Positions 286-56,109 of a stretch of DNA of 64,000 nt are shown here, in pieces. Numbering within the stretch: position 1 is the stretch's first letter; each line of letters starts with the position of its first letter. The notes beneath the pieces were generated by a model. That model was given only the letters and a program-made list of their open reading frames with translations. It had not been told where the DNA came from and searched no databases. Position numbers and translations under genes: made by a program. Source of the DNA: Cladocopium goreaui (taxonomy: Eukaryota; Sar; Dinophyceae; Suessiales; Symbiodiniaceae); NCBI GenBank assembly GCA_947184155.2, contig CAMXCT020001014.1:123984-187983 (forward strand), given 5' to 3'.

Positions 286-3200
286 GCTACTGCAAGCTGA
301 AAATCTACAACCCCAAGATGGGTATTGCTCTCAGATGATTGGCTGGCTTTGAGCAGAATCCTATGATTTCGTCCTTCAATACTTTGTGTGCTGACACTTC
401 AGCTGACAATGTGCTGATGTCCGATATGCTCGATATACTGGTGTTTGTCAGAGTTGCTGTTTAAATGACAGAAACCTTGCTGTTTATCAAGTATACGCAC
501 AAGTCCACATTGAGAAAGAAGATAGAAAGAGGCTAAACTCTCCGTGTAGGAGGTATGTATACGAGTGATTTTTCATGATTTTCATGTAAAAACATGCATC
601 TTGATATGTAAAACTATATATATATATGGAATATGGGAATATGGAATCAGTTCATGTGTGAAAGCATGCTGGGATGTGAAGGGGTGGTGTTCATGACATG
701 ATCTGGACATGATGGTGGATACCTGTTCTAGAAGCATCTAGATCATCTAGATTCATCTATGAATCTAGGCTCCCAGTTGTGGGGCATACGTCATGCCCAG
801 CTCACACATCGGAAGATGTGCAAAAGTATGCTTTACACTCTTGATCCTGGCCAATTTCTTAATTTCTGATTATTGCAACGGTTTTGTATCCAATCACGTT
901 TTGCTACGTGGTAACTAGCTGGATTTGGATGCTCTTTTGGTCTCGCCATCGCTCAAGCCCTCCGGATGAGCGTTTGTATTTTCGTGCTTTCATGCAAGCA
1001 GCGACGATGACAACAAGTCTCCTTTCCAACTTTCTTTGGTTCATGCCATTTTCCCAAAAATGTGTCCCGCTTTGAACGATAACGAAAACGATAACGAAAC
1101 GATAAACCATTTTTTGACAAAATGTCCTTCGCTGATGGATGGCCCAGATGTGAAAAGATTCTTGAGGTGGTTCTTTGCACTTTAACATTGTCACTTGCTT
1201 ATTGCGATCTTTTCGCTGCTATGCAAATTCTCTTGCAGCGCTCCATTGCTTTTGTCCATCTCAGTTCATCTCGGGCACACAGATCGTAAAACTGCACCTG
1301 TAGGTCTGGGACTGGTGGCAGCTGTCCACGGGGCCCGTGAGCATTCTGTATTTTCTGATGATCTCATTGACTTGGCCGGGTTCCACACGTGGGCCGATTT
1401 GGTGGACAGCTGCCACCAGTCAGAGAGCTGCGGTTTGATGATAATTTATGTTTTTTATGCTAGATGAAGGAAGCTAAGGCATTGGACCATGTCGATGGTT
1501 TGACTTAGCTACGCAGACGCTGGACAGCGAAAGGCCTGGAGCGTGTCGCTGTGAGAGCTCATCTGGACTTCTTCCAACAAACTGAATTCAAAACTTGTTT
1601 CTGAGTTTGAGAAAGTACGGTGCAACTGCGATTTGCAGTTGCGTTGGCAGGAACCATACCATACCATAATGGAGCGTTGCAAAAGAAAACGCAAGGCAGA
1701 CAAAGATGCTGCAGACGCTGGAGTGGAGGTGTAAAAAGTTTTCGTGCATCCATTTTGCAAGGGGAGCCGGGTGATGCAACCAGGATTTACTGTAAAACGA
1801 TATAGGTAACTTAGGTAATTCGCAAAAACAATGATGTGACCAAAGGTCGCATTTTTCAATTGAGGTTTTGCCGATCGCTCACATGTTTTTTCTGTTCGAC
1901 AGGGCAACAGCCCGGTGAATTCTTGGTTTGCGGAATTTCATGCCTCTTTGCTGTGTATTGTATTTCCATGCGACTGATCTAGGAAACTCTAAGTTAAGTT
2001 CAAAAATTTGCTGACGTCATGACATGACAGCCGATGAATTGAGGAATGGACAGCTTGCAAGTGACACCTATTTCGCAAGCCAATGTTTTTGCCCCAGATC
2101 CTGCTTTGGTTCCATGGTGTTCCGGGGACTGGCTGATTCCCAGGTTTACCGTCCAAAACTTGAGGCAAACCAGCGCCGTGGCCGTGCTGGGCGCACAGGG
2201 CCTGGAGCGTATGGTCCTCAGAGCTTCGAGCAATGGGAAATTCGTCCAGGTACCCATGTGACATCCATGTGACCTCGTGGATTAATTTGTTGGGATTTTT
2301 TTTGGGGCGGATTCATTTCCTGGGTATAGGGTATAGGAGAGCTACCCCGGCGTACCCGGATTAATTTCCAGAGAGGTGCCTACATCTATTAAGTTAAATT
2401 TTCATGTTGATTCATGGAATCATTTGTAAAGGGACAAATGTAAGCAGGGCACCTGGACTAATTTCCAACAATGATATGATATGAGTGCATGGTCATGATT
2501 GGGCATACTATGGGGCCATGTGGGGCCATATTGGACAAATGTCATGATGTCCAGCCAGCCAACCGACACGATTGTAAAATATTTCAACATATTTCCACGC
2601 ATTCATGGCTAGCGTGTCTCCATAGGGTGGCAATGGATGGCATTTGTCCTCAAAAATCATCAGCAATCAGTGTGAGGATGTCGTTTTGTATGCACATGGT
2701 CCCATGGTGCACAAACTTTGGTACCATGATTTCATTGCACCTGGTAAGGCAAGCTGCATAAAGTGCATGATGTGCATGTTTTGAAACACGATTCACACAC
2801 TGAGATGCTGGCGGCTCTACACAGAGAGTGCCTATGTCTCCGAAATGCTTACCATGACTATTCCGGAGATTCAACGTCAAGGGCTCAACACATTGTCGAA
2901 TTGCCAGTCAATCCGATGATTGTGCCACATCATCGGATGAAGAGAACATGAAAAGATGATTGCAGAAAGGGGGATTTGGCAAGTTCTTTTTGCTGCATTT
3001 ATGTCAGAAAATGCATGTTTGCATTGATGATCATGTGCAGTGATAAGGAAGGATACTGAAGATGCAAAAGACAAGTTTTATCAGTCATGCTAATGCGGTG
3101 CTCCTCCACCCTCCTTCGCCTGAGGTACCAATCTTGCCAACGTGGTGCTGCTCTTGAAATCGATGGGCGTAGCTTGGCTGTATTTGTGATCGCCGGCGGC

Positions 3201-6200
3201 TCGCAGAGCATTGCGAATCTCACAAGCAAGTCCTATGTTCATGATGATACTATCTCAAACAATAAGAAACAAATCAAAACCCGTCCATTTTTTCAACTTG
3301 TGATACCCTCCAATGACAATTGTCTTCTGGAGGTCCAGGCATCAAATGATGCGGTTCTTCATGTTTTGGCTCTGCTGAGATCAAAGATTTGCTCTCCTTT
3401 GGCTTCATGGATCCACCGCCACAGGTGCAGTCTCCGACCCACTCAGTCGACACTGTTTGGCAGCTATTACTGTAACCCGGATCCTTTCACAGTGGAGGCA
3501 AGTGAAAAGAGTGGTACTGTAATGTATGTGGGCCCATGACAGGACACAATCTTGAACTCTTTGTTCCAGCTCTGGATGCTGGGTGCGTTGGACAATCTCG
3601 GTGCCGGGTTCTCAGACTTTGTCTCTTGGGGATGTTCCATGGCCATGGCCGCAACGTCTCAGGACATCACGAAACTGGGAAACAAGATGGCGCAATTCCC
3701 ATTGGCACAGAGCTCAATCAACAGACACGTAAGTCAAGGAATGGACCCAACCAACGCTTGCAAGTCTAGCAGGATTGCTGTTTGTAAATACTAGGGCCAT
3801 GGAGATTCAGCATCACTAAGGACCCACCACTGTCCAAAATGCTCATTGTTGGTGAAGAGATTGGCTGTAGCTCGGAGGCCAGATGCCTGGGCCCTGCATT
3901 CTACAATCATTCCATGAACTAGTTCCATACTATGTGATTCCGGTTCCTGCCTGTGCCAAAACCGAAACATATGCCTTGGAACTGCGTGCCCTGGTTAGTT
4001 GCTTCGCTTTTCACTTTGATCAAATCCAGCTTTCGTCCCAGATTATGAGCATTGTGTCCATGCTCTCGGTGCCATCGATCTTTTTCCGACCAAAGGAGAG
4101 TTCCAACAGCACAGCTTCTTTTGGCCGGGAGGGGTGAAGGAAACCTATTTGCGGCAGATTTTACATGTCAAATCAGGTTGTCAAAGGTCTCAAAAGTCCT
4201 TGCCTGTGGGTATTCGGGTATTGTCTCCGCATGAGTGTGTCATCACCATCGTGCTTGCAAACAGTCAGGACCGTGCAGATGAAAGCGACGCTGCAAGAGA
4301 GAAGTTCTTTGTCCCGGAAAGCGCGGCTCCAAATGTGTAGGATGCTGCTTTGAGAGGTTTAGCAAAGCACGCAACGTGTTGATTAATGTTTGAACCATGA
4401 ATTGGTTTCTGCAGGCAAGGGTCCTGGGGCTTTGGATCTATTGTCGAGAACCACTTTCTTTCAGAACATCGGAGTGCTTCATCTTTTGTGAGACTTAATT
4501 GCGTCCGCCCATGTTGTATGGCTTCCACTACGAACTTGCTTGTAGGTGATCACTTGACCTTTTTGAACGTTTACCAGCAGTGGGGCCACAATGGCTACAG
4601 TATTTTGCTTAGCCTCCGAGTGACTCACCAATGTGTTACTAGTGCTTCAGCCGCTCAGCCCGCTTGAAATCCGGCCAGTGAATCAAGTGCATCTTTGATG
4701 TTTTTTAATCTTACAATTGCGCAACGACTCACAGCAACATATCCGCGCTGACCTTTTCTTTGGAACTTGGGTTGAAGAGGCCTGTATCATAGTGTGTTTC
4801 CTAAATTATAGCACAAGTTGGCACGAAGGACTAGTCACTACGGACACTATATCAATCTATATTATATGTGCGTAGTTCCACAATGACAAAGAAAAGCTTA
4901 GCAGACTTTACTGCAAAACGTGTGAGCATTGTTTCCTCAAAAGAGTTGGGGCAACACCCTGGCCATGTCATGTTCAAAACAGTTGTCCTATTCTCCCATC
5001 CCAGGTCCAAAACCCAAAAAGATTGCAACAAACCACCCTCCACTGAGCAGTGCTTCGGACTTGAGGTGCCAAGTGGTGTGGAGATCACTTTGTTCACCAG
5101 AAGTCACTGAAAAAGGTTCGTGAAGTGTTTTGCTCTCAGTAATGCCATGCCCAAAGATCCCAAAGCAGAGTCTGGCAGAGAACAACAATCGGGAGCATCT
5201 CCGAGGCGCGGGCAGCTGGAGGAGATTATGCTGCTTGGACTAGGGGCTGGCAGCTCTTTGGGCTCCAAACATGTCAATCAAAAAGGGGTGGCAAAACAAA
5301 TGATCCCAAGGTACGCAATGTTTTCAAAGATTCGCGGTGATACGACAGTGATAATTAGTGATTTGCTGCTGGTGTGACATCCTCAATGACTCAGTTTGCT
5401 GTTTCTTGCGCGCTCTCCGGCTGCTTGTACATGCTCTCTAGGCGTTCCCTACCCAGGGGCAGAACTGCGAATAGGAAGGTATGCCAGAGACTGATTTTGT
5501 ATGAGCCCGAGGCAGCAACAGCACCTGCAAATCAACTCCATTGGTGAGCGCCTTAGTTGAGTCTTCAGCACGTGTTTTTCTGCTTGACCGAAGATTCTTT
5601 TGGATCGACTAGTTTTCGCTAGGACCGCTAGGATATTGAGTTTTGAACATGTGTGGCACAAGATGGATGAACATGATGTTTTCAAGATTCTGTAAAAAAG
5701 AGCCGCTTACTTTTTGCTCTTGGGCAAGTTCCATGACCAAGGCACTGACTGGGATCAGGTCCGCAAAGCCATTTGCGCAGGGTACTTTCACAATGCCAGC
5801 AAGTGTGGGCCTCGGGTCCAGATGAAGCCGGATGATTTGAAGGTGCTGGAAGATGCTGGAAGCATCAAAATTGGAAGGGTCCCAGTCACAAAGCAACAAT
5901 CGACTGTGCAGACCCTTGCTGCTCGCATACTGCCTAGTTTTTGTCATTCTTCGAACTCGTCTCTGCAGTGAAATGATTTGGTTTGTGTTTGTTTTTTTTG
6001 AGGCTTCGTGGCATTGGTGAGTATGTGAATCTCCGGCCACAGCCCTGGCATGGAGAAGCATGTTTCAAATGATTGATGCTAATTTCGGTGCTATGTCTCG
6101 TTATGCAAAGAGAAATTCAAGGTAAGACAAGACTAGACTAGACCGTTTGACGGGTGATAGCATCGTCCAGTGCAAGATGGTTCAAAGCATTTACATCCCT

Positions 6201-7520
6201 GCAAACTTAGGTCGCGGATCCCTGCAAATTTGCATCCAACTAGCTCGCTGTCACAAACTAAGCCGGGCTTGGGGTCACGCCTTGCAACCATTTCGAGCAT
6301 TCCCTTCACTGATATCTGCATTTGCAGCAGAAAGCGCCTTGTTGACTTATGGTCACTTTTTGACATCAGGAATGGAAGGCCGATAAGGCCAAGAAATATC
6401 CGTGGAGGTTGAACTTTAGCTGCTGAGTAGGTCATGGCATTGGATCAGCTGAGGTATGGCCTCGGCTACACGCCTGACTACGTAGTTTACCATGAGGTGG
6501 GGCGGATCATGCCAGATCAACGAGTTCTCCCTTGACCCTGTTTGGAAGAACTAGTTCCCTGCCCACCAGGTCATGTACACCGTCAAGGAATACATGCAGA
6601 CAGTCACCGCAGTAGATCCATACTGGTTGGCTGAGTTGGTGGCTTAAATTTCCCGCTGCTGGTGGTGAGTCGGTTACTCCGGCCGGGGTTTATGGCTTAA
6701 GTGCCACAGGATGCTCAATTGCGCAGCAGGGTGCCTGAAGATACTGAAGGGGCTGGCTGTATTGAAGGCACTAGTAGCTCTTCAAGTGAAGACAGATTTG
6801 GAACACTGGAAAATGGCAACCCATGAAAGCTTTGAACGGTTGTGGTCTATTCACGCTCAGCAACGGTGAGGCTTGGCCCCATGTTCTTCTCTGTCAAGGA
6901 GTCGAGCAAGGGGCTTATGGACGGAGTGCATGTTGTTGCTTTGAACGTGGGTCTTGTTGGCTAAGTTACTGACAGGATTTGACAGGTGTGCGCTGTTGAC
7001 CAAAGCTACCATTAAGGTGCACTAGGGTGCATTTTTTGTTCGAGTGCTGACACTGATTGTGATCAGAAGGCTGCAGTCACTCCGATATCCAGGTAGCGAC
7101 TTCCAAGCAAAGCAGAGACAAGAACAGGAAGAGCGCAGGAAAATGGAGCTCCCTGGCTAAGTATTGTTGCAGAGTTGATCAGCCACGCTTGACATACAAT
7201 AATTTTATTCATTAGATTTCATTAATTAGTATATCAAAGTGTTGTCGGGGACAAAGTTTCAATTTCCTGATAGGCTGATGGGATTCAATTTGCTCGCTTA
7301 TGGAAAATGATTTGCGCAGAGCACATGCAAATCGTGACATTGTGGTCATTTTCATCCACATCGGCAGAAAGGAAAGTGGTCTTGAGATGTCTTGAGTACC
7401 TTTGCCATCTCAGCATGAAAGCCATTGGCCCAGAGGTACGAGCAGAAGCTGCGGGATGATCTTGAAAGGCAAGCGAAGCAGGAAGAAGCAGCCTGGGCCT
7501 TGAAAGACTTTTGCCAGTGA
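286..7520 (+). CDS. PRP16/DHX38-like DEAH-box pre-mRNA splicing ATPase, 3' part, 23 micro-exons
   Basis: ATP-dependent spliceosomal RNA helicase of the PRP16/DHX38 type; the 5' half (RecA1, DEAH box) lies outside the window. Exons: 286-321, 2044-2084, 2165-2208, 2805-2875, 3125-3168, 3380-3424, 3543-3602, 3663-3704, 3821-3877, 4042-4095, 4269-4320, 4546-4599, 5066-5126, 5206-5232, 5512-5543, 5742-5802, 6003-6035, 6211-6249, 6454-6496, 6570-6634, 6871-6905, 7093-7147, 7436-7520. Landmarks in order: [19 protein letters not shown]; helicase motif [35 protein letters not shown] (HA2 domain); [55 protein letters not shown] (OB-fold region); [20 protein letters not shown]; a charged C-terminal tail. 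Every junction keeps phase, and together the exons give 378 codons including the stop. Donors are 13 GT, 8 GC and 1 GA. The last exon may instead splice on at 7516. Identity is firm; single borders could be off by a few bases. Confidence 0.9.
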
Positions 7521-7948
7521 CGGTTGTGCCTGGATGGTACGTGGAACCCAGGTATCTCAGTTGTACTCCCCCAACAAAATTTAATATACAGATACGGGTT
7601 TGCCTGACCCAGTCGTTGGAAAGCATTGTTGTTGTACCATCTTTTTTTTTTGCTCTCCTCAACCTTTTTCCTGCACCAGTATTGATAGAGGGTCACCCCC
7701 GTTGAACAACCAATTCAGTGATGATAAATCGTCGTTTCAACATTTTTCAAACATAATATATATGTATATATACTTCGATATGTAGAGCCTCCAAGTACCC
7801 CTGAATATTGTTAGTCTACGTATGCTAAACCAAAATGAACCTACCCGTGTTTTTTTTCTCACGGACAGATCTGCTGTTTTGGCACTGCTGGGCGCTGGCA
7901 CCGTGGCTGTTTAGCTCGGAGAGACATCAGCCCAGCACCGCCATAGCC

Positions 7949-8510
7949 ATGGGCTCGGGCGCGAGTTCTCGAAGTGACATTCAGGAGGTCGACGCATTGA
8001 CTGGTGTGCAGCCTGAACCGAGACTACCAAAAAAGAAGTACAAGATCAAATGGGACAGGAGACTGGGCAGTGTTCTGAAGGTACATATATGTTATATGAT
8101 TTCTTGGTGAGATTCTTAGATCATGATTATCATATATTATCATATTCAAGGGGTATTTGATGGTATTTGTTTAATATTGTTAATGGTTTTTTCTGCACAA
8201 TTATGTAGATGGGTCACAAAGCACCAATTTGGTCGGCGTTGGTCTTTCCGTATTCTGCAACCCAAGGGCTTGCGATCCCCCATTGATGAAGCAAGTCAGC
8301 AAGTTGGTGTGCGTTACTCATCGTTACTCGGTGCCCAGGAACGACATGATGAAGAGGAAGAAAGAGGCTGCCAAGGTTGCCAAAGCCACGTCTGAACCGC
8401 CAAGTAGAAGGTCTCAGATTTCTGAGGGCGAAACCACAGTGCGTAGTCTTAGTCAGAGTCAGTTGGGCTCCATCCTTGAAGAAATGGATGACGAAGCAGC
8501 TCTTGAGGCC
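7949..8510 (+). CDS. Unrecognised multi-exon protein with MGSGASS N-terminus (partial)
   Basis: The family is not recognised. Exon 1 (7949-8080, 44 codons) starts at ATG with MGSGASSRS, a good N-myristoylation context (Gly2, Ser6), which would suggest membrane attachment. It ends in a basic stretch (PKKKYKIKWDRR) before the donor AAG|GTACAT. A 23-nt exon (8209-8231, MGHKAPIW) and an exon from 8357 (KKEAAKVAKATSEPPSRR, then a Ser-rich and an acidic segment, SILEEMDDEAALE) join in phase, with AG acceptors. The 3' end is uncertain: I see coding-like sequence to about 8510 and possibly further in another frame (VEECHRAATHFLDD near 8560). It begins only about 430 bases after the helicase gene on the same strand. 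Confidence 0.5.
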
Positions 8511-8599
8511 GGGATCGATCATCCATTTTGTCCCCAAAATGATTCCGAGTCAGGTCGAGGAATGTCACAGGGCCGCAACACACTTTCTTGATGATCTGG

Positions 8600-10470
8600 C
8601 CAGAATGAATGGCATGCCTTACGGAAGGTTTGCCACTCGGGGTTCCCTGTGGGGTTCCCTGCCTGGTCCTTTGTCCTTTGGGTCCGGGTTCCACCTTTTT
8701 GTCCTCCGCTCTCTGTGCTACGCAGTTGAGTGGTGCGCATTTGTTTGAAATTCCACATGGAGGGCTTACATATACCATCGCTGCATGGTGTCGTGCAGCA
8801 CACATGTTTTTAAAGAGATTGGCGTGACGATCCTAGCTGCCTTCCCACATGTCATCATTTGAAATATGTGGTTCTCCCTGAGAAGAATTGCAATTATATT
8901 ATATCATATTAGGCCGCATTGTCAGGTGATCAAGCATCGAGCACGATCGTGTTGGGATTGCGGATTCCATGGGGTTCCCATTTGGGTTGGCACCTATAGA
9001 ACCTATAGGCTCTCCGAGATTGTCCGAGTCATTGGTTTTGAGATGCTTTGAGCAGTTGGAGGATGTTTGTTTGCCGCGGGTCTTGCCATGGGCTTTGTAG
9101 GACTTGTAGGAATATATGTATAGTAGCCGTATAGACCGTATAGCCGTATAGCTGTTGTATTTGCTTGTTTGTTTTAGCCATATTTTCCGCTGTTCAATTC
9201 ATCAACTTGGCCAGCAGATGTTTCTTTTCTGAAAAAGGAGGCTTTGGAATCGGGACGGATAGTTCTCGGAGATTATGTTTTGTTTTACATTAGTAAAGTA
9301 AGCAATGCATACCGAACACATCCGACTACTAACCACCACTAAGCATGACAATGAACCTGAGCATTGTTCAGCCATTCGGGTATTTTGGCTGGCACCTCCC
9401 TGACATTGAAAGCCATTGAAACTGACCAAGGGCTTCACCCGATTCCACCTGTGCCTTGCGGATCAGTTTGCTTAGACCCTTAGCAAATCTCTGCATGAGT
9501 GGAAAAAAAGTCGCGCCGCCGTGCTGTGCCACACTAAGACTGGGGAGATGGCCATGGATGGTGAAGATCCTGAAATTTCATGAAGTTTTGATGTTGTGAC
9601 ACTCAAGTTTCGTCACATTTAATACTTGATCCATCTTTATATTCTTTATCTCATGTCGTGAGGTACCAAAAGCTAAATTGGAAGTTCGGAGTTAGTGATA
9701 GTGGTTGATCATGGTGCATTTTTGTTCATGTTCCAATTACGTCCAGATATGTCCCACCCTGCCTAGGAAGCCTTGGTCCGCAGTGGTGGCCAGGTCGTCG
9801 AGCTTGCGTCTTAGATATCCTTAGATCACAATTTGTTTCTCTTGGGGGTACTGGTATTTGTGGGTGCTATGATTTGCTATGCCATGGCAAATGTGACCTG
9901 AACTACAATCCACTGGAGCTATGTACCAGATTGTGATCCAGTCAATGTATGTGATGTCAGGAAGACACGGGAAAGCAGTAGCATTACCCCACACATGTTA
10001 TCAGGAAAACTCGCTGACCAAACATGACCAAACCGCTGAAAAGCACATGTGGAAAGCATGTGTGGCAAGCAAAATCCCCGTGAAAACAAAATGCCTGTTC
10101 AAAGGCAACATAAGGCTACCAAAGAGTTTGCTTACTGTATGAAATGCCTCATTCAGATGGCTCTGCAGGTTGGAAGTTGTTCAATCATATACAGCTACAT
10201 CTACTGTTCAATCATATACTTTGGCAATTTTTGGTGTGTAGTATTGTCGAAGGAAGTTTTTTGAAGTCAAACTTCCAACAATATGGACAGATGAAAAGCA
10301 GAGATGGGAAGAGTCAGAGAAGAGAAGAGAAGAGAAGAAGATCAAAAAGAGAAAGCCTCAGAAGAAAAAAAATCCAGGTGCGCGAAAAGGTAGGAAAGTC
10401 GCGAAACACTGGTGTTTTTCCAATGATTTGTGGCTCCGGAGGGTCGAAAAGTAGGCTCGCTAAAGCGGCG
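8600..10470. other. No gene recognised
   Basis: I found no convincing exon on either strand. The open frames are short and lack recognisable motifs. 8640-8700 is a GGTTCCCTG-rich stretch. 9110-9150 has short repeats of TATAGCCGTATAG type. Intronic parts of the neighbouring gene could lie here. Confidence 0.4.
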
Positions 10471-10479
10471 GGTGCGGAG

Positions 10480-10770
10480 CCAGCTGGCCAGATGAGAGAT
10501 GAAAAATTGCACGCCGTTGTGGCGAGAAGCGCGTTTCCAAGTCAAAAGTGTTAAAAACTGACGGGGTCAGAGCACTTTTTGACGTTGCGATATGTTGCGA
10601 TGTCGAAAAAGTGCACGCCGTTGTGGTGCGAAGCACATTTGGAAGTCAAAATGCACAAAACACATTATGTCCGGACCACTTTTGGAAGTTGAGATGTCGA
10701 AAAAGTGCACGCCGTTGTGGCGCGAAGCACATTTCGAAGTCAAAAGTGCAAAAAAATGAGGGGTATGGAA
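10480..10770. repeat. ~95-104 bp tandem repeat, three copies
   Basis: The block TGCACGCCGTTGTGG followed by CGAAGC and an AAGTCAAAA tail recurs with starts near 10507, 10611 and 10705, so the period is 104 and then 94 bases. The copies are diverged. A fourth, weaker trace (cattttggacgttcggatg) follows near 10785. The open frames across this block are products of the repeat. Confidence 0.75.
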
Positions 10771-11159
10771 TGGTATGGAACATTTTTGGACGTTCGGATG
10801 TCGTTTCGCCTGGCAAGCGCAAGGGATTGTGCACCTTGTCAAAAGTGAGCAAAACGTGAGGGTTTTGTGGCATTTCCAAAAAGGATGGCAGGCATGGGAC
10901 ATTTGAAGAGGATCTGCAAAGATGCATTTCGCGTGGCAGGCGCAGTACAAAAGACATGTTCATCAGAGATGTTAGGCGGTCAGGGCGCTGATTTCCTGAG
11001 AGGGGTTGCATTTTGGAGCATCAGATCTGTAGGTTTGCTAAAATGATTTTGCGTGATAGGTGCAGCACTTCGTATGACCTGGCATCACTTTTTCGTGGCA
11101 GGTGCAGTACTTTCGACAGGTGGACTGGAAAAAACGCAAAACGCATTGGTACAAGGCCG

Positions 11160-11480
11160 TCAGCGCTGCAGTCAACTTTCCATTTTTGAAGGAAGCAGAA
11201 TTGCTTTGTTTTTGATGTTGTCACGTGTGAAAAATGAAGAAGTCTCTCAGAATTGCTTCGTTTTTGACGTTGTTAAGTTCAAAAATTGAGAAGTCTCGCA
11301 GAATTTGCTTCGTTTTGGATGTTGTCACGTTCAAAAATTGAGGAAGTCTCGCAGAATTGTTTCGTTTTTGACGTTGTTAAGATCAAAAATGAAGGAAGTC
11401 TCGCAGAATTTCCGTCGTTTTTGATGTTGTCAACTTTGAAAAATGAAGACATCTCGCAGAATTGCTTCGTTTTCAAGCTT
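11160..11480. repeat. ~58-60 bp tandem repeat, five to six copies
   Basis: The unit is GAAGTCTCGCAGAATTGCTT followed by CGTTTTTGACGTTGTTAAG and a CAAAAATGA tail. Copies are diverged and alternate between a TGTCACGT and a TGTTAAG variant, which suggests a higher-order dimer. The array passes directly into GACA/GATA microsatellite. Confidence 0.8.
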
Positions 11481-11482
11481 GC

Positions 11483-12185
11483 AGATAGACAGACAGACAG
11501 GCAGACAAACAGACAGATACAGATAGATAGATAGACAAGTACAACTACAACTACAACTAGAACTACGCTAAACTCACTACACTACTGCTACAACTACAAA
11601 TACAAATGCAATACAAACACACTACGCTAGATTACACTACACTAATTGCACTACACTACACTAATTACATCTAATTACACTACACTACGCCAATTGCATC
11701 ACTACAACTACTAGAACAACTACTACTACCACAACTACAATTACAACTACACTACACTGCAGTACACTACAGCTACAGATGCAGCTGCAACTACGACCAC
11801 ACTACATTACACAACGCTACACTACACTGATTACATTGCACTTCACTACAACTACAACTACAGCTACAACTGCAATTACAACTACCACTACTCTACGCTA
11901 CACTACACTAATTACACTGCACTGGACTAAAACAACAGCGACACTACCTTACACTACACTAGACTACATTACACTATACCACACTACACCACACAACACT
12001 CCACGACATTACACTGCACTACAATACACTAATTACACCACACCACGGCTACAACTGCAACTGCACTTGCAACTACACATTATAATTACACTACATTACA
12101 GCTACAACTCCACTCCACTACACTACAACTACAAGTACAACTGCAACTACAACTACAACTGCGCTACACCACACTACATCCAGCA
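11483..12185. repeat. GACA/GATA microsatellite followed by long ACTAC/CTACAA array
   Basis: 11483-11536 is (GACA)n then (GATA)n. From 11537 to about 12185 the sequence is an irregular array of ACTAC, AACTAC and ATTACACTAC words. One strand is almost free of G. The open reading frame inside is a consequence of this composition. Confidence 0.9.
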
Positions 12186-12199
12186 GTTGTGGTGAGGTG

Positions 12200-13150
12200 A
12201 CCACTGCAACCATTTCAAAAAACACGACTCCAACCACCTTTCGGTCCATCAGTGGAATGGCTCTGCCATCCGTGATTCACAAAAAACCAACCTCTCCTAT
12301 AGGTTTCCTATTTTTGAAAATTCCGCCACTGCCTTGTGCGGTACTACTGGTATAGTAATATGTAATTTACATTTCGATGTAGGTCTGACGGTGCATACAG
12401 ATTTATGCGCACAAAGCCAGCCGGCAATGTTGATTGCTTCTGACAACATGCTGCTCCCAGAAATTTGAGGGTGGGCAAACGCCGGGCTCCACGCGACAAC
12501 TTGAGGATGCCAGAAGAAGTGCCAGAATGACTCAGAATGACGCAACATGCTTGTTTGAAGGTGTTTGAAGACATGCTGTTGCTGATTCTCTTCAAAGCTT
12601 TAACAGCAAGCAAGAACATTCCCTTTTTTGGTGTTGTTTTCTCACTCCTTTTAGACATGAAACTCAGATTTGCAGACGGGCTCTGATTCGAATGTGCATG
12701 GGCTGGACATGGCTGCATTCCGTGAGGAAGCTCAAGAGCAGCGAAGGAGTTGAAGAAGAGACCGTCCCTCGAGGCCCATGTCAGATGAAAGTGCCCAGTG
12801 CCCGACACAGCACACAAACCCATACATGACATTCACATTACCAGTTTTGCTGATTTGGGCTGTTTTGGGTATGGTTTACTTAGTTACTTAGTTTGCTTCC
12901 TGTCAAGTTTCACCTCCAGTGGATATTTCCGGCCAAGTTAGTGGCACCTCCTTCGTGGGCAAAGACTCCGACTCCGACAGCTACCGCACCCAGAGGTGTT
13001 TGTGTTTGGCCGGGACAGAGGCCAAACATGCGGATCAACGAGGATGAAAAGCAGCTCAACAAACTAGGAATTAGAAACGCATAAAACAAAAGTAAGGTAC
13101 ATTTTGTTCAAGACTCACCTCGGGTGCAACGCATGTGCAGCTGAGTGCTT
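12200..13150. other. No gene recognised
   Basis: A 162-codon open frame on the minus strand (12344-12832) has no recognisable motif and no supporting splice structure. I see no repeat here. The stretch may be intronic or intergenic. Confidence 0.35.
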
Positions 13151-13152
13151 GG

Positions 13153-13332
13153 ATGGGTGCAAAATCTAAGGTGCTGCCGCAAAAAGGCGGCGGCAAGCAG
13201 GTGGAGAACCCAGCTGCAGAGTCCGTGCAGATTCGGCATTGCGTGTTGAAAGGCTCGCTGTGCCAGCTGCCTTGTGCCAGTGTCTCTGGCCAGGTCGGAA
13301 GCCACGTGCATCGGGCTCAGACCGCCGAGTGA
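13153..13332 (+). CDS. Possible N-terminal exon of a small parvulin-like (Par14/PIN4) protein
   Basis: The frame starts at ATG 13153 with MGAKSKVLPQKGGGK and runs to ESVQIRHCVLK. The combination of a Lys/Gly-rich start with GGG and an IRH-x-x-x-K segment resembles the beginning of Par14/PIN4-type peptidyl-prolyl isomerases. If so, the real exon probably ends near CVLK at about 13251, at a GC donor (AAAG|GCTCGC). I did not find the downstream catalytic exons with the GGDLGW signature, so this may be a stray fragment or a chance resemblance. Confidence 0.3.
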   Translation: MGAKSKVLPQKGGGKQVENPAAESVQIRHCVLKGSLCQLPCASVSGQVGSHVHRAQTAE

Positions 13333-13370
13333 CACAAACCTTTTTGGAGAAGCCATTGGTTATCCGACTA

Positions 13371-13413
13371 TCCACTGGTTCACTAGTTCACTGGTTCACT
13401 AGTTCACTGGTTC
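13371..13413. repeat. Short tandem repeat of TGGTTCACTAGTTCAC
   Basis: GGTTCACTAGTTCACT words alternate about five times. Each half-unit differs only at the CTAG/CTGG position. Confidence 0.8.
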
Positions 13414-13692
13414 ACTGGTCCATCATCTTGGCAGCAGCATGTAGCAGGGTCAATTATCCATGCCTGTCAGGCCCGGACCGCTTGGGCTGCCAGTGTGAGC
13501 TAATGATTGGAGCTGATGGCAAGGCCGTGTGCAGAGCGTGCATCCCTTGGTGCTCCTGTGGAGCCTTCGGGTTTCACATCACGAGTTGGCAGAAGCAGCT
13601 GCTACTCAGCCCTCCCAATTTGACCATATTAGTGCCCATTGCAGCTGAGACCACGACACATTAACAGAAATTCCATCCCAGGTACCAATGAG

Positions 13693-13798
13693 TTACCCTC
13701 TGGTAATTTAACATAACTATTGAAAATGGTGATTTATAGTGGATTTTCCCATTGAAAATGGTGATTTTCCATAGCTATGTTAGTTTACCAGATGGTAA
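13693..13798. repeat. Small inverted-repeat element (hairpin, MITE-like)
   Basis: 13693-13720 and 13771-13798 are inverted copies, matching at 24 of 28 positions (TTACCnTCTGGTAA...TAACATA-CTAT). Each arm also carries its own small palindrome (TTACC/GGTAA). The interior holds two direct copies of GAAAATGGTGATTT. I see no clear target-site duplication. Confidence 0.7.
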
Positions 13799-13799
13799 A

Positions 13800-14138
13800 G
13801 GAAGCAAGGAAAAGGAGAGAGAGAGAGAGGATCCCCAGCTTTCGATAAGTTTTCCATGTTCTTACTTGATGTGTAAAGGCATGAAGCCATCAACAGTCAT
13901 TTTGGAAGGTTGATGTTGGAGCTGCATGTGCCACCTGCAAGAAAAGGAAACTTGAACATTGAGCATGACTTCATTGTTCTACTGGCATGTCACTATTGAA
14001 CTGCCGCTTGAGATCAATAGGGGACAATAAGTGTGCTTTCAGAATCTTTGATGCACGCAGTACCCAGGGGCTGGTGGGTGGTGGCAGTAGCTTAGCCAGA
14101 CAAGTTGATGATACACAATTTTACTTATATATATATAT
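13800..14138. other. No gene recognised
   Basis: Only a GA microsatellite (about 13815-13830) and unremarkable sequence. A short TA run precedes the next exon candidate. Confidence 0.35.
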
Positions 14139-14300
14139 ATGGGGATGAGTCAAAACTTTGAACTTGTGACAGCTCTCCCTATCTATGATCTAGACTTGTT
14201 CTCGACACGGAGTTCCATGCCAAGGGATCCAAACGTTGATCTTCCCGCGGCTCTCCACCTTTATTTGAACCACCGCAAAAACCGCGGCAATACTAAACAC
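14139..14300 (+). CDS. Exon candidate, unknown product
   Basis: An open segment with coding-like composition (SQNFELVTALPIYDLDLF, then PAALHLYLNHRKNRG) ends exactly at a canonical donor, AAACAC|GTAAGG at 14301. The start is unclear because the upstream flank is a TA run with no good acceptor. No domain is recognised, and no partner exon was found. Confidence 0.3.
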
Positions 14301-14937
14301 GTAAGGGACGGACATTGGTTTGTGGAAATTGATGGAAATCTGGTTCACAAATGACATCAGAAATCAATGTTCAAAATGACATTACCTTGAAAGGGGGTAT
14401 CGCTAATTTGGAAAGGTCCCGTCGCTTACCTCGTATTTGGTACGTGCTCCTCAGAGAGTGCTCTTCTTGATCCCATGGAGTGGTCCGCAGAGAAGGGAAT
14501 CCGCAGAAGCAGAAACACGTTTGTTTCACAGGGTGCCTGCACATCCTTGCCTTGCATGTTTTCATTGACTCTCCACTTGAACTTGCGCCATTTCGATTGC
14601 CTCTCCGCTGACTTTATCTCCCCAGTGCTGTTGTTTAGTGAAGCTTCTTTGTGACACTGACAAATGATTGCCGTTGCTGAAGAGAGTTTCCATTGACCCC
14701 CCCATGTGAACTTGCACTGTTTTGCTTGCCTCATTGCTGACTCTTTGCTGTTGTTTCATGAAGCTGCTTTCTGGCAAAGTACTACAGACAGCATCAACAG
14801 ATACAGATACCAAAATTGGAAAATCACGAGCTGAATTTTAGCGATGCCTGAGCGATACCCACGCGATACCCTTTTTTCTGTTCCAGACGCCCAGGTGCAC
14901 ATCAGCCTGTGACAGATTCAGGTTTTCTGGTGGCAAG
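14301..14937. other. No gene recognised; weak internal duplication
   Basis: The words TGCTGTTGTTT-AGTGAAGCTTCTTT and TGCTGTTGTTTCATGAAGCTGC recur about 115 bases apart (14630 and 14745), so part of this stretch is duplicated. No exon was recognised. Confidence 0.35.
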
Positions 14938-15066
14938 CTGGATAGAGATAGCTAGATAGCTAGATAGATAGGTAGCCAGCTAGCCAGCTAGCCAGCTAGC
15001 CAGCTAGCCAGCTAGCCAGCTAGATAGATAGATAGATAGATAGACAGACAGATAGATATAGATAGA
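14938..15066. repeat. GCTAGCCA / GATA microsatellite
   Basis: About seven copies of AGCTAGCC flanked on both sides by (GATA)n and ending in GACA. The octamer contains the palindrome GCTAGC. Confidence 0.95.
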
Positions 15067-15301
15067 CTGGCATTCTTTCTGGCAAAGGTTCGGGCCTGTA
15101 GGGGCCAGGAAAGCTGGCAACGGCCATAGCATTCGGGTTTAGAAGTGGCTGGCCAACAAGCTGGCTGTCCATGCTGGTGGTGGGGAAAAAGAGATTTGCA
15201 AGCACCTCTTCCAGTAGCTCCTCAGATAGCTCAGAGTCCTGCAGCGAAGATGCCTGATCAAATAGGAAGCACAGCCTCCGCTCCGGAGTCAAGTAGATCA
15301 T
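15067..15301 (-). CDS. Exon candidate on the minus strand, unknown product
   Basis: From ATG 15301 on the minus strand the frame reads MIYLTPERRLCFLF, then an acidic helical stretch (DSELSEELLEEVLANLFF) and a Pro-rich end (PGPYRPEPLPER), before it runs into the GATA microsatellite. Composition looks coding, but no domain is recognised. A splice acceptor (GCTTGCAG) lies just upstream in another phase. Confidence 0.3.
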
Positions 15302-15914
15302 TCATTTTCCTGCAAGCGATACCCCCCAAGTTTGCGGTATATCATTTTTTGTGCAGACGTGTGGTAAGCGATGGGACCTTTCCAAACTTGTGGATGTCCA
15401 TTCCGTGAACCTAGGGTTTTCGAGATTGCTCATATAATACTTATCATGCATAGAGTAAATATACGACTATTATGAACTATCTATTGTTGCTATGTCCTCG
15501 TATATGTTTGTCACAAATGCCGCCATTTGTAACTGGAAGTGTTTAAATGATACAAATTACATACTTTGATATGCCCGCCCCTGAGCTGCGGATTTGAGAT
15601 TTTATACTTTTATACCTTGTTCATCCTTGTTCATGGTATGTTTGTGACAGATTGCAGAGTGATCGGCTCGTAGTACTTCAGCATGGGACTTGAAATGTTC
15701 AGTTGGCATTCTAGCTTTTCAGCCACATGTCCACAGATACACTATGTAGTAGTTCAAAGTTCAAAGCTGTTTTTTTTGCCATGGTATGGGAAGCAGAATT
15801 GCCTTCACAAACCATACGAGAATCCCATTCACCTATTCATACCTATATGTGTAATAATATATATATATGTATATACATACATTTATTTGAGCATTGCCTC
15901 TCTTACATCTGCAG
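15302..15914. other. No gene recognised
   Basis: AT-leaning sequence with a TA run at about 15850-15885. Exons upstream of the 15915 gene, if any, were not identified. Confidence 0.35.
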
Positions 15915-17200
15915 ATGTTGCAGCGTGCACCAATGCCTCCGTTGCTGGTGGCTTCACTTTCGCTGGCCTTCCTGGGCTACGTGTGGGTTGTTGGCATTCT
16001 CCTTTGGAACTATCCATGGTTCTGCCGGATTTGCTGGAGAGACTTTTGTATTTTGTTGACAAGATGTGACCTTGTGGGTGTTAACAATTGTTAACATAAA
16101 TGCGTCAGGATTTTGATTATTTTGCCAAGAAGGGCTAGCCGCGGCTAGCCTCTAAATCGGATGGTTCACTTTCGTTTGTTCGTCATGTTTGCGAGTAAAA
16201 ACTAACTGGGATTATAAATAACCAAGGGGGATGTATGCTGCATTTGTTTTGTAACTTGAGTGTGGGGCACTTTTGTTTGGGGGGAGGTGCACGCTTCCAA
16301 GTCATTTTTTATATACATTTTTTTACACAATTACATATATAAACCCACACAAAAACGGTAACAACGACCCAGTTCAGGAAAACGATCCGTTTCACATTTT
16401 CTTGACTTGCGGAGATTAGTTTTTGAGGTCTATTTAGCAAGCTCAGGCTAGTACAGCTCCTTTTCTTTATTTCAGTGGCAGTTGCGCTCTTTGGAGGATC
16501 GCTTCTGTGCTTGGTGTTCTATTTGGTTCGATTGAAACATGAACAAGGTGCAATGCAGTTGCTGCCGCCATCAGCTGCAGATGTCCTGGATTTGTCCATT
16601 TTCGAGATCGTCGAGGTATTGAACCGGGTGATCATGAGACCCTTTTATGATTTCATCCGTGTTTTGCTGCTCATCAATGCAGACTTGGATGAAAAAACTC
16701 GAAAAGAGATCCTGGAAGAGATGAGCCCAGAGTTTCGACGACGCGTTTTCCAGTGCTCCGTTGTGTCGCTGTTGCCTGGTTTTTTACAGAAGCTGGCGTT
16801 GGGCAAAGACTTCACGGCATCAACAGACAACAAGGCCACAATGCAGGATCTCTTTGGGTATGGGGACAAGACAGCCATCGGAGTCGGAGACGAAAGTCCT
16901 GTGCGGAGGCATCGCTCGCTGACTGACCTGCTTGAGTTCATGCGTTCCGTAGAGGGGTCCTCCGAAAAATCAAGGCAGTCGACTGTCCTCCAGAAGATCT
17001 TGGCAAGCACCTTGTCCAGCCATGTCCCGAAGTGTGACACCTACAAAGGTAGTACATATAAGTATCCGACAAAATTATTGGTTTTTGGAAGCAGTAGAGA
17101 GCTGCCTTGAACTTTGCTTGCCTTCATGACAGCTTCACAACCGATAAAGGACGACCCAGCACCCATACTAGATTCCAGCGCGTTCCCACAAAAATATGAA
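15915..17200 (+). CDS. Two-TM membrane protein with helical cytosolic region, three exons (3' end open)
   Basis: Family not recognised. Exon A 15915-16077 begins with ATG (MLQRAPM) and carries a hydrophobic segment, ASLSLAFLGYVWVVGILLW. Exon B 16476-17048 starts with a second hydrophobic segment (AVALFGGSLLCLVFYLV), then an amphipathic helical region (LSIFEIVEVLNRVIMRPFYD; DEKTRKEILEEMSPEFRRR) and a Ser-rich segment. Exon C 17133-17200 encodes SQPIKDDPAPILDSS. Phases match at both junctions: G|TG gives Val and G|CT gives Ala. Introns are GT-AG. ATG 15915 directly follows TCTGCAG, so exon A could also be internal. After 17200 the next candidate exon (about 17222) meets a stop in phase, so the C-terminus is unsettled. 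Confidence 0.55.
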
Positions 17201-17384
17201 GTAGGGTGTTTTTTTTCTACAGCAACGGCTACAAACAAGGCTGTAAACGGCTACCTCAGTTAGCTTTCTCTTGGAGATCCAAGCATTTTGTTTGCGGCGA
17301 TTCACGCACCATTCTCACGGAGACCCCAACCGATATGGATGTTGGAACTATTCTCACTTGCCGAGACCATGCACCACGTACGCT

Positions 17385-17775
17385 ATCGTCGCTTCTCCTT
17401 CTACTCCTGCTATTGCTGCTGCTGCTGCTACTGCTACTCCTGCTCCTACTGCTACTACTGCTACTACTACTACTGCTACTACTGCTACTACTGCTACTAT
17501 TGCTATTCTTACTACTCCTACTCCTACTCCTACTCCTCCTCCTACTCCTCCTCCTACTCCTACTCCTACTACTCCTCCTACTCCTCCTCTTACTCCTCCT
17601 GCTACTACTACTTCTATTCCTACTTCTACTACTACTAGTGCTACTACTGCTACTGCTACTGCTGCTACTGCTGCCACTATTGCTACTGCTATTACTGCTA
17701 TTGCTGCTACTACTATTACCGCTACTGCTACTACCACTACTACTTCACTTCTTCTTCTACTTCTATTGGTTACTC
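17385..17775. repeat. Trinucleotide array (CTACTG/CTACTC)n
   Basis: About 390 bases of CTN triplets, almost entirely pyrimidine plus A on this strand. All frames stay open and give poly-Leu, Ser/Tyr/Cys or Thr/Ala strings. These are products of the repeat and not a protein. Confidence 0.95.
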
Positions 17776-18394
17776 CTACTTCCACTTGTAATATTTCAAC
17801 GAGCAGCATTTTCTACTGGATGTTATCAAAGGGACGACCGATAAGGGACAACCCAGTTTTGCCCGTGGCAATTGCGGGGAACAAATAATTTTGCCCGCCA
17901 CTCATGTAATTAATTACATTATAGCACCAAAGTGCCCCGGAAACGGCAACAAACCATTCTGCGAGAAGACAGTTGCAACAACTGAAACGCTAATCTGCAG
18001 TTAATTTGCCGATTTGCGATTTTGTTCTGAATGTCATTAAATATATCATGAAATAAAATGTGCGAACTACAAGTAGGTGCTTTGTTTAACTTTGTTTTTT
18101 ATTTTCATTGAATGATCTTGAATGCGTTCACTGTGCAGTTTCTGTGGCAATCAGAGAACTTCAGGAGACTCTGTGCACGATGCATTCATTGAAATGCCCA
18201 GCAGCATCAGGAAGTACAGTACTATTATAAGAGCTGCTGATCAGAGAGGCAGAACCATGAAGATTCGGACCTATTGTCCACACCCACGTCGCTATCTTCA
18301 ATTCTTTGGTAATTATTGGCAATTATTATTGTGCGCAATGTGCCCAGTACTGCACTAGTGTCTTGACACCCTGTGGTTCTGACCGCCACCTGAG
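17776..18394. other. No gene recognised; a short copy of upstream sequence
   Basis: 17831-17870 (GACCGATAAGGGACAACCCAG) resembles 17144-17163 inside exon C of the preceding gene (CCGATAAAGGACGACCCAGC). This may be a small duplication. No exon is recognised. Confidence 0.35.
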
Positions 18395-18648
18395 GCAAAG
18401 TCTCCGATGCAGCCCTATGCGCCATGTCACAAGGAGCTGTCCACCAGTACGAGAGCCACCTTAGCAACCGGGTCCACTACTTATTGGACATTATTAGCAA
18501 GGAACCCGAACGACGGGTCTTAAAACTCCCGTGGCGTGTTTTGCACTGGGAGGTGACCATGGCACACTCTGTGCTGAAGGGCGCCGCCTCTTGGTTTTTT
18601 GAGAAAACCGAACAGGAAAGTGCTGATGCTGCCAAGAAGGACAGCTGA
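18395..18648 (+). CDS. C-terminal exon, unknown product
   Basis: The exon follows a good acceptor (CACCTGAG|GC) and stays open to TGA 18648: KVSDAALCAMSQGAVHQ, then SHLSNRVHYLLDIISKEPE, then SWFFEKTEQESADAAKKDS. The hydrophilic, Lys-Asp-rich end looks like a true C-terminus. An internal ATG at 18424 could also be a start. No domain is recognised, and upstream exons were not identified. Confidence 0.4.
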
Positions 18649-18838
18649 GCGCGGCATTTTTCAACTTGTACAGTCTTAAGACATTCGCCACTTAATTAAA
18701 TTCACCACTGACCACCTGGATCTTTCCCCGCAACAGTTCTGCGTTTACGGATATATCATACAATGAGGGTTCAATAAAACATTCAGGATCCTTTAGCTGC
18801 CTTTAAAGCTGCCAACTTCATGTTTTTCCCACACCCAG

Positions 18839-19096
18839 CGTGATGATCAAGTTCCGGACTTGCCGGAAGTCATGTCACTGTTTCACAGGCTGGCCCGTGT
18901 GCTTCCTCCAATTCCTTGGTTGGCATTCGCGCCTCACAGCATGTCACCTTCCATCACCCGCCATAGATCGCCATAGTGGGCAAATTTGCAAGAGACTTGT
19001 TGCGCATAATCCGAGACGGAGGTGACATTTGGCAGAGCCTGCCACGAGTTTCGCCAATCCTGGAATCCTGGACGCTGATTGAGAATGCTGCCAGAG
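18839..19096 (+). CDS. Two phase-matched exons of an unknown protein
   Basis: Exon 18839-18896 (RDDQVPDLPEVMSLFHRLA) follows a CACCCAG acceptor and ends at a GTGTGC donor. Exon 18977 to about 19096 reads GKFARDLLRIIRDGG, then DIWQSLPRVSPILESW and LIENAARG, ending at AGAG|GTAGTG. The leftover C plus TG makes a Leu codon, so the phase agrees. The helical, charged character suggests a globular protein, but no family is recognised. Confidence 0.4.
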
Positions 19097-19670
19097 GTAG
19101 TGAAAGGAGCGTTGCAGCTGGTATAAGTCAAGCAAGACCTGCAACAGACAAGTCAGGAAGTTCGCATGTTTGTCCCCCCTTTTTCTTGACTGAACCCAAG
19201 ATGAACGGTTGATGGCAGACTCTGCAGCGCGATGCAGCACGTCACATACAAACAAAGGAGACCACAGGCCGATCCACGCAGCATCATGCAGCATTCACAA
19301 CCTGCCGGCTTTGCAAAGCATTGGCTCTGAGACACTGTAAGATTTGTAAGTGAGACAAGTAAGAAATGGCGGTGACATGGCATGGCAATTGGCAATCGGC
19401 CTCGCAGCATGGCAACTTCGAAACTGATGAATCGGCATTCTTAGCCAGCCGCTATTAGCCAGCCACTGCATCTAATAGGGATTGGTAGAGAGCAGACAAT
19501 GTGAACAAGAGCGGTTGCATTGAATCCTCTGCCCAATTCAAATCAATCAAGGAGTCAGTGTCGGAAAGGCAGTGTCTATACTTTCGTGCTCCACTTGCCT
19601 CATCTTGCCTCTACTGATCTGAGCTTAGCCCCGTGCGGCACACAAGCCGCGCGTGTTTTTTTATTTGGTC
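19097..19670. other. No gene recognised
   Basis: Unremarkable mixed sequence with a short AGCCAGCCGCTATT duplication near 19445. No exon or repeat array seen. Confidence 0.35.
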
Positions 19671-19742
19671 ATGGGGTTTGCTTTCAACCTACCCCCTTCT
19701 GTGGATAACCTCGTCAAGGCCGGGTTGGGCGGAATGGCTCAG
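19671..19742 (+). CDS. Small exon candidate, unknown product
   Basis: Twenty-four codons from ATG 19671 (MGFAFNLPPSVDNLVKAG, then LGGMAQ) end at CTCAG|GTGCTT. Composition and the clean donor favour a real exon of an intron-rich gene. No family is recognised. Confidence 0.3.
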
Positions 19743-20090
19743 GTGCTTGAAATGGATTGAGCAAAGCACGAATTTGTTGCGGTTTAGCCTTCTGCGGCTC
19801 GTGTTTAACTCATCCAGCGCTATTTCAATTAGTGATCAAGTGATCAACTCAACTGGATGTGTGTTTTCGGGCTGGAGGGTGGAGTCATGAAGTGAAAGCT
19901 CTGACCAGATAAGCATTCACCTGGCAGGGAGTAGAACTCCCAGATGAGTGGTCTGAGCATTCGCCCGGGCTTAAGTTCAAGGTACTTAAGAATCCTAATT
20001 AAAATTAAAATGAATAATTACCGCAACTTATCCGTCAATCCGTCGGCTCAAGGTGCTCGAAGGGCTGGAAGGTAAGAGACTTCTGCTGCC
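19743..20090. other. No gene recognised
   Basis: No exon or repeat is evident. Confidence 0.3.
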
Positions 20091-20220
20091 ATGATCAAAA
20101 AACGCAAGGTTCGACCGCAGAAGTCGACTATGAAACCCTGGGATGACAGACACCACCTGAGCGATTCGCAGAATGAGCTGCTTGGACGGGAACTGAACTT
20201 GGTGCTGTTTGTCCGCACCG
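20091..20220 (+). CDS. Exon candidate with basic N-terminus, unknown product
   Basis: The frame starts at ATG 20091, right after an in-frame TAA, with MIKKRKVRPQKSTMKPWDD, then HHLSDSQNELLGRELNLVLF and VRT. It reaches the canonical donor CACCG|GTGAGC at 20221. Without splicing it would end at TAA 20264. The KKRKVR cluster looks like a nuclear localisation signal. No family is recognised. Confidence 0.4.
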
Positions 20221-20535
20221 GTGAGCATGAGTGTTTCTCCAAGGCTAGGGCTCGTGAATTCTAAAGGTCGTCCATGAAAAGGATGTGGATTATGTATGAT
20301 CTGTATCATGATGGATCATGTATAATTGCATGCCATTACATGCCAGTACTACATAATGATACATAATGTACACATCATTACACACACATATATATATATA
20401 TATTGATCTAATTACCTGTATCATCTTCCTGTTGCCTTTTTCTGCTGCTTTGGACAAAATGCTGGTTTTGAAGTCAAACGCCGGAAAAACAAGCCTTCGA
20501 ACATTTTTCCAATTTTTAGAGCTTGGAGAAAACCT

Positions 20536-20880
20536 ACAATTACTTTACTTCGAGTAATCCCCACCATGGCATTTCAAAGCATCACATATGCCATATCTTA
20601 TGACATTCTTCTTTCTGGCATATGTATCTGGCATATCTTCTGACATTCTTTCTGGCATTCTATCTGGTATATTTTCGGAAATTCTTTGTGGTTGAGGAAC
20701 ACTCTACTCTGATCCGGAGCTCACGGTTGAGGTCCGGCGGGGAACACTTTGATCTGGAGCTTGCGGTGGAGAGCTTGCAGTTGAGGTCCTGCGGAGGAAG
20801 GAGGGGGAGGAGGCGGGCCAGCTGACATAAAATCTAACAACCCTCACCTGGACCTGACAGGTGGGGAAAAATGAAACGGC
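20536..20880 (+). repeat. Dispersed repeat family, copy 1
   Basis: Starts AATTACTTTACTTCGAGTAA, continues with a run of TCTGGCATATCT/TCTGACATTCT words and then GC-rich TTGAGGTCC-type text, and ends AACCCTCACCTGG...CAGGTGGGGAAAAA. Copies 2 and 3 lie at 42318-42655 and 47774-48500. The end carries a palindrome, CACCTG...CAGGTG. Here the palindrome is widened by a few extra bases. Confidence 0.75.
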
Positions 20881-21372
20881 ACAAGTCGGCGCTAAAACGA
20901 TCTAAAACGGTGCAAAATGGTGCAAAAACGGCACAAATTTCTAGCACAAACCAGGAAACAATAGAAACGCAAGTTTTTTTTGCGAAACGACATTTTTTTC
21001 CAAACGGCACAAACACTTGTAGTTTTGGGAACCTCATTTTTTTGAGCACCAGGATCTTATAGGTATGTTGATCCTGCATTCCAGCTTCGCCGAGGGACAC
21101 CACATGTTTCATATATATATATATATATAATTATAATTATATATATATAATTATATATATATATTATAGGTTTGCACCTCGTAGGGTCACATTGTTTGTT
21201 CTTCTAATCAGCTGCAGTCAGAGCAAGTTTGGTGGTCACCACGACATGGAAGCAGCAACAACATAAACGTAGTTTGAACATGAGCTGTTTGAGAACCGAC
21301 AGAATCCCTGTCTCGGAACCCATAACACGGTAACCATTGGTAACCCGCGCATCTTCCCTCAGAGCACTTGAG
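20881..21372. other. Non-coding stretch with TA-rich hairpin
   Basis: 20880-21000 repeats AACGGCACAAA/AAACGGTGCAAAA words. 21110-21170 is a TA microsatellite containing ATATATAATTATAATTATATATAT, able to fold on itself. No exon was recognised. Confidence 0.5.
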
Positions 21373-22600: not shown

Positions 22601-22605
22601 TTCTA

Positions 22606-52370: not shown

Positions 52371-52373
52371 AAA

Positions 52374-56105: not shown

Positions 56106-56109
56106 TGGA

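Follow-up and report, generated by a model that had tools for sequence, protein, structure and literature searches.

A PRP16/DHX38 gene in a Cladocopium goreaui assembly, divided into short exons, with a recurrent C-Y-Y-A-R box at intron positions +9 to +13

The stretch of DNA analyzed here (64,000 nucleotides of the Cladocopium goreaui contig CAMXCT020001014.1, positions 123,984 to 187,983 of the forward strand; "the window" below, with coordinates counted from its first letter) carries on its + strand, at 286 to 13503, the 3′ part of a gene predicted to encode the helicase PRP16/DHX38, a factor of the second splicing step. The portion inside the window comprises 30 exons of 14 to 71 nucleotides (mean, 44.7) and 29 introns of 60 to 2668 nucleotides, whose phases 0, 1, and 2 are represented 10, 9, and 10 times; together the exons encode 445 residues and a TAA stop at 13501 to 13503. 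The upstream part lies outside the window: exon 1 opens at residue 826 of the 1270-amino-acid protein P0121, described below, such that the N-terminal 825 residues are not in the window.

Exons 1 to 6 (286 to 321, 2044 to 2084, 2165 to 2208, 2805 to 2875, 3125 to 3168, and 3380 to 3424; 36, 41, 44, 71, 44, and 45 nucleotides) are all followed by GT donors, and the third of them encodes helicase motif VI (QRRGRAGR). GC donors follow exons 7 to 9 (3543 to 3602, 3663 to 3704, and 3821 to 3877; 60, 42, and 57 nucleotides), a GA donor follows exon 10 (4042 to 4095; 54 nucleotides), and a GC donor again follows exon 11 (4269 to 4320; 52 nucleotides). The donors are GT after exons 12 and 13 (4546 to 4599 and 5066 to 5126; 54 and 61 nucleotides), GC after exon 14 (5206 to 5229; 24 nucleotides), GT after exons 15 and 16 (5512 to 5543 and 5742 to 5802; 32 and 61 nucleotides), GC after exon 17 (6003 to 6035; 33 nucleotides), GT after exons 18 to 20 (6211 to 6249, 6454 to 6496, and 6570 to 6634; 39, 43, and 65 nucleotides), and GC after exons 21 to 23 (6871 to 6905, 7093 to 7147, and 7436 to 7490; 35, 55, and 55 nucleotides). 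Seven further exons complete the gene: exon 24 (9767 to 9801; 35 nucleotides, GC), exon 25 (12470 to 12505; 36 nucleotides, GA), exon 26 (12727 to 12773; 47 nucleotides, GC), exon 27 (12938 to 12979; 42 nucleotides, GC), exon 28 (13171 to 13200; 30 nucleotides, GT), exon 29 (13294 to 13307; a 14-nucleotide micro-exon, GC), and the terminal exon 30 (13471 to 13503; 33 nucleotides, including the stop).

An initial annotation, made from the letters alone, had placed a 23-exon PRP16-type gene at 286 to 7520. We rebuilt the chain over this interval independently, from the sequence and PRP16 homology, and arrived at the same 23 exons averaging about 49 bases (49.3), the same range of 60 to 1722 bases for the 22 introns, the same 13 GT, 8 GC, and 1 GA donors, the same GA donor (AAG|GAGAGT, intron starting at 4096), and the same 20 AG|G among 23 acceptors, the remaining 3 being AG|A; the frame was maintained throughout, as had been claimed. 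This agreement covers the counts and the examples that the annotation supplied, which included no full list of borders. Its exon range of 27 to 85 bases has to be lowered at the small end to the 24 nucleotides of exon 14. Also borne out was its remark that a scan for open reading frames (ORFs) misses the gene: among 39 ORFs of at least 150 amino acids, the sole + strand ORF inside the gene (3087 to 3539) shares its frame with no exon.

What did not hold was the proposed end of the gene. The protein P0001 of Effrenium voratum diverges from the first-read model beyond that model's final residues, and pieces of its tail were matched in order farther downstream, at 9767, 12471, 12722, 12937, 13173, 13293, and 13468; these matches are short (E values of 0.003 to 7.9) and convincing as a chain only. 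The resulting 3′ extension adds seven exons (9767 to 13503) and seven introns and requires no frameshift or internal stop. Exon 23, which had been run to a TGA at 7518 to 7520, instead stops at 7490 with a GC donor (7490|7491, GAAGAAGCA|GCCTGG), and that TGA falls in intron 23.

The predicted product was nearest to PRP16 among the DEAH helicases. The 376 residues of the first-read product aligned to residues 825 to 1190 of human PRP16 (PDB 5yzg) with 571.5 bits and an E value of 6.7e-171, without a gap over 366 residues, in keeping with the identity first proposed. All of the top five PDB chains were PRP16 or prp16-like (571.5 to 421 bits), followed by a "putative pre-mRNA splicing factor" at 386.7 bits and DHX8 at 372.7 bits. 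HA2 and OB-fold domains exceeded the Pfam cut-offs (PF04408, PF21010, and PF07717). The window contains an intact motif VI; motifs I and II (GETGSGKT and DEAH) were seen by eye in P0121 and are coded upstream of the window; the sequence gives no sign that PRP16 itself is altered. The nearest named PRP16 proteins were P0123 of Durusdinium trenchii (96% identity across 92% of the query) and P0001 of E. voratum (95% identity over 94% of the 376-residue query). Common to the gene and these relatives are the gap-free human alignment and the HA2 and OB domains; the layout of 30 exons of 14 to 71 nucleotides for 445 residues is that of the gene here, the human, D. trenchii, and E. voratum relatives having been compared as proteins only.

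A second homologue search, run after the 30-exon model had been built, retrieved P0121, which stands for 29 clustered sequences from 18 contigs, none longer than 5,366 bp. The spliced 445 residues are an exact substring (826 to 1270) of this protein. In the genome, the same 445 codons are spread over 13.2 kb, more than contigs of such length can hold, and P0121 must accordingly derive from spliced sequence; its source would be a transcript or, with lower probability, a retrocopy. Relatives of the gene were found at no locus in the viral collection and at one in the prokaryote collection (L001, JAIYDP010000189.1), where a contig filed under a Verrucomicrobiaceae metagenome-assembled genome encodes a PRP16 relative with 62% identity in its best segment, presumably as eukaryotic contamination of the bin.

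The 29 introns begin with GT (14), GC (13), or GA (2), and every one ends in AG, which is followed by G at 25 of the 29 acceptors. Each junction of all 29 introns was slid, and the placements that preserve the protein were counted: there were 2 to 7 per junction (mean, 3.8), and in 29 of 29 introns exactly one placement ended in AG, each time in the form G[TCA]-AG. Randomly drawn anchors gave, over 20,000 draws, a mean of 6.4 of 29 introns with any AG placement (maximum, 15) and 1.6 of 29 with a G?-AG placement (maximum, 8).

This donor usage is ordinary for the lineage. Published genome-wide shares for C. goreaui are 36.6% GT, 43.6% GC, and 19.8% GA (PMC9412976; figures from the literature, here and below, are those given in text passages of the papers cited), and GC or GA donors make up 25 to 74% in other symbiodiniaceans (PMC7789003). 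The GC and GA donors of the initial annotation are real and typical of dinoflagellates, yet its view that so many in one gene are noteworthy does not stand: the mix of 14, 13, and 2 showed no significant departure from the published shares (chi-square P of 0.17), and the 15 non-GT donors among 29 are, if anything, below the genome average (P of 0.93 for at least 15 at the genome rate). Non-GT donors are normal usage in the lineage and carry no special message about PRP16. The outlier is instead the fragmentation, with a mean exon of 44.7 nucleotides here versus 120.4 bp in the genome, where genes have 17.2 exons and 96.1% of acceptors are AG|G (PMC9412976). In their GT, GC, and GA shares, AG|G acceptors, many exons, and weak donor signal, the introns resemble those described for C. 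goreaui, Breviolum minutum, and Symbiodinium microadriaticum (PMC9412976, PMC7789003, PMC5177918, PMC4083563, and PMC10666404).

That weakness is evident on both sides of the donor dinucleotide, as columns −4 to −1 and +3 to +6 each held at most 0.17 bits after small-sample correction (29 introns). Over the remaining seven positions of CAG|GTAAGT, GC donors matched at 2.1 of 7, GT donors likewise at 2.1 of 7, and the two GA donors at 3.5 of 7, against 1.75 if each position matched with a chance of 25%. In the GC-AG introns of plants and animals, close agreement with CAG|GTAAGT at the other positions makes up for the GC donor. The introns described here share with them the GC donor and the AG acceptor, but their GC donors match the other positions at only those 2.1 of 7.

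Information reappears farther into the intron, in a C-Y-Y-A-R box at +9 to +13 that, like the seven downstream exons, had been missed in the first reading. Its first instance is CTCAG in intron 1 (330 to 334, + strand), and the equivalent site of the other introns fits to varying degrees: across the 29 introns, +9 is C in 22, +10 is T or C in 24, +11 is C or T in 24, +12 is A in 19, and +13 is G or A in 26. The C at +9 has a binomial P of 4.8e-9, and this column carried the highest single-column information between +3 and +40, above all 2,000 shuffles; the five columns together held 3.01 bits, and none of 5,000 shuffles exceeded 1.33. The pattern C[CT]NA[AG] starts at +9 in 15 of the 29 introns, whereas 38 alternative starts between +3 and +45 (with +7, +8, +10, and +11 omitted) gave a mean of 0.37 and a maximum of 2. 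The C at +9 was found with all donor types (GT, 11 of 14; GC, 10 of 13; GA, 1 of 2), in 17 of the 22 introns of the first model and in 5 of the 7 newly added ones. Once positions +3 to +13 joined +1 and +2 in a donor score, decoys in the PRP16 gene scoring above the median true donor fell from 118 to 1.2 per kb, figures that are optimistic in that the score was trained and tested on identical introns. Within the PRP16 gene, then, the box is solid. Roy et al. (2023, Curr Biol) are said to have reported novel favored dinoflagellate donor motifs, which could already contain it. A motif at +9 to +13 goes unmentioned in the text passages considered from PMC5177918, PMC11453091, PMC7245778, PMC7789003, PMC11114475, PMC10666404, and PMC4201569 and likewise in those of PMC2488372, PMC4548154, PMC9860276, PMC9412976, PMC8045281, PMC5029490, and PMC4083563.

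Could the GC and GA donors be misplaced GT-AG junctions, an artifact of reading by eye? Every junction does leave the 2 to 7 protein-keeping placements given above, but for none of the 15 non-GT introns is any of these a GT-AG placement, and we give this explanation practically no weight. Hardly more probable is that the gene model is right while the locus itself represents a duplicate or decaying copy whose 3′ end is broken at the TGA of 7518 to 7520. The last exon of the first reading indeed runs into that stop, and its final residues have no counterpart in six aligned relatives; against this, the seven additional exons recover the relatives' C terminus, and all 445 residues equal P0121 without frameshift or internal stop. 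We consider the following account very probable: an intact PRP16/DHX38 gene, which we infer to be expressed, has its 3′ part at 286 to 13503, the DNA being nuclear and belonging to C. goreaui or a very close species, and the lineage's major spliceosome excises all 29 introns. Some observations weigh against this account or against the reach of the box. The junctions are fixed at the protein level only, an intronless retrocopy could also account for the short contigs of P0121, and AG|G at 25 of 29 acceptors is slightly under the published 96.1% (P of 0.025; PMC9412976). The box was noticed post hoc, in a single gene of a single species; in the neighboring gene at 15915 to 18648, intron A (GT) has GGATT at +9, which does not fit, and intron B (GC) has TCCAG, which fits only a looser YYNAR. 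Scores of at least 6 with the box included occur at 167 + strand and 198 − strand sites of the window, such that this score is no gene marker on its own.

A different origin for the box would be as the fossil end of DNA transposons (introners) that made these introns, an explanation we regard as unlikely. Each intron would then consist of an 8-nucleotide target duplication plus an element with ends CTYAG ... CTRAG, the G at donor position 1 and the G that follows the acceptor AG being copies of one target base. The acceptor side, Y-Y-N-A-G, does mirror the box, in that the commonest forms, CTGAG and CTCAG, are reverse complements, and a published introner of S. microadriaticum has inverted ends, duplicates 4 bp of its target, and draws its donor from that duplication (PMC9860276). 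The introns of the PRP16 gene have in common with the introners of Amoebophrya, Polarella, and Symbiodinium that they are dinoflagellate introns with unusual donors (PMC7789003 and PMC9860276), but inverted ends, target duplications, and shared sequence were not detected in them. Intron positions +2 to +8 matched +2 to +8 of the downstream exon at 49 of 203 positions, with a permuted mean of 55.6, which speaks against a target duplication, and the published duplication is 4 bp rather than 8 (PMC9860276). Pair-specific complementarity of the intron ends was absent (68 of 145, against 69.0 when permuted), and here the introns also differ from those of the euglenid type, with their base-paired ends. 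The best of 240 registers scanned for end pairing reached a z of 2.8, chance level for such a scan; exact inverted matches between the initial and the terminal 40 nucleotides of an intron never exceeded 7 nucleotides (mean of the longest, 5.1 over the 29 introns and 5.0 after permutation); and when the introns were compared with the window by BLAST, the only hits were repeats inside introns 1 and 24, with no intron-intron similarity. The box does not correspond to a left-over target duplication, and it shows no covariation with the acceptor end.

How dinoflagellates recognize donors without the usual signal is an open question in the literature (PMC4201569). On the reading of the locus as an intact gene spliced by the major spliceosome, that spliceosome would require G at position 1 of the intron, accept any of T, C, and A at position 2, and need an acceptor AG, mostly with G after it. 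The 5′ end of U1 pairs over −3 to about +8. The box, lying just past that reach, may help to mark donors whose U1 pairing is weak, and a candidate reader would be a factor positioned there, for example through contact with a protein of the U1 particle. More tentatively, we raise the possibility that the donor in Symbiodiniaceae is set by G at position 1, T or C at position 2, and the C-Y-Y-A-R box beyond the reach of the U1 5′ end, rather than by base pairing of U1 with positions −3 to +6; the signal by which the 5′ splice site is recognized would have shifted downstream, which would explain the genome-wide drift of position 2 to C and A. If this were true, the box would offer a directly testable answer to the puzzle of donor recognition in dinoflagellates and could improve gene prediction. 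The PRP16 locus is in any case a well-resolved case of dinoflagellate splicing, in which a conserved gene is split into exons of 14 to 71 nucleotides and is invisible to an ORF scan.

Other features lie within and beyond the gene. Intron 1 contains a 20-nucleotide perfect inverted repeat (1310 to 1329 and 1402 to 1421). Intron 23 holds an open stretch from 7947, starting MGSGASSRSD, and a second one in another frame at about 8310 to 8590; the region at 7947 to 8590 may be a nested gene, or what remains of a gene, with the same orientation as PRP16. The neighboring gene mentioned above (15915 to 18648, + strand) has three exons, at 15915 to 16018, 16447 to 17006, and 18395 to 18648, and its 305 amino acids are identical to P0235 of C. 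goreaui, a protein retrieved in a third homologue search, with two exon stretches downstream of the PRP16 gene. This identity assigns the window to C. goreaui or a very close relative, and with it to the Symbiodiniaceae.

A scan of the viral collection for the exact 21-nucleotide dinoflagellate spliced leader found a single contig with two copies (L002, IMGVR_UViG_3300045993_001077; 7157 bp; region of interest at about 1785 to 2913), in a search that may omit records close to the genome of the window. This contig is mostly AT rich (7 to 26% GC per 300-base window) with long ORFs, including a 975-amino-acid glycosyltransferase, and has an island of ~49% GC with a 254-amino-acid ORF directly after the second leader copy; it had no Rfam match. 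The contig appears to represent capture of a trans-spliced dinoflagellate mRNA by a putative giant virus, or a virus that uses the leader of its host; a chimeric assembly is also possible.

Across the window, Rfam gave no match at gathering scores and ARAGORN no tRNA, and Pfam searches of both translated strands of 13504 to 23401, 38400 to 43401, 48400 to 53401, and 56000 to 60501 returned only weak hits under the curated cut-offs. Among 16 selected ORFs, Pfam identified a copia-type reverse transcriptase and one tandem-repeat ORF with models below cut-off. Two overlapping long ORFs at 25468 to 34391 (1454 and 1554 amino acids, the second matching RVT_2) probably represent a Ty1/copia-type retrotransposon with overlapping frames. 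Large satellite arrays occupy 35917 to 38338 (16-bp unit, ~152 copies), 45948 to 47178 (7-bp unit, ~176 copies, with a strong bias of C over G), and 60468 to 62162 (160-bp GC-rich unit).

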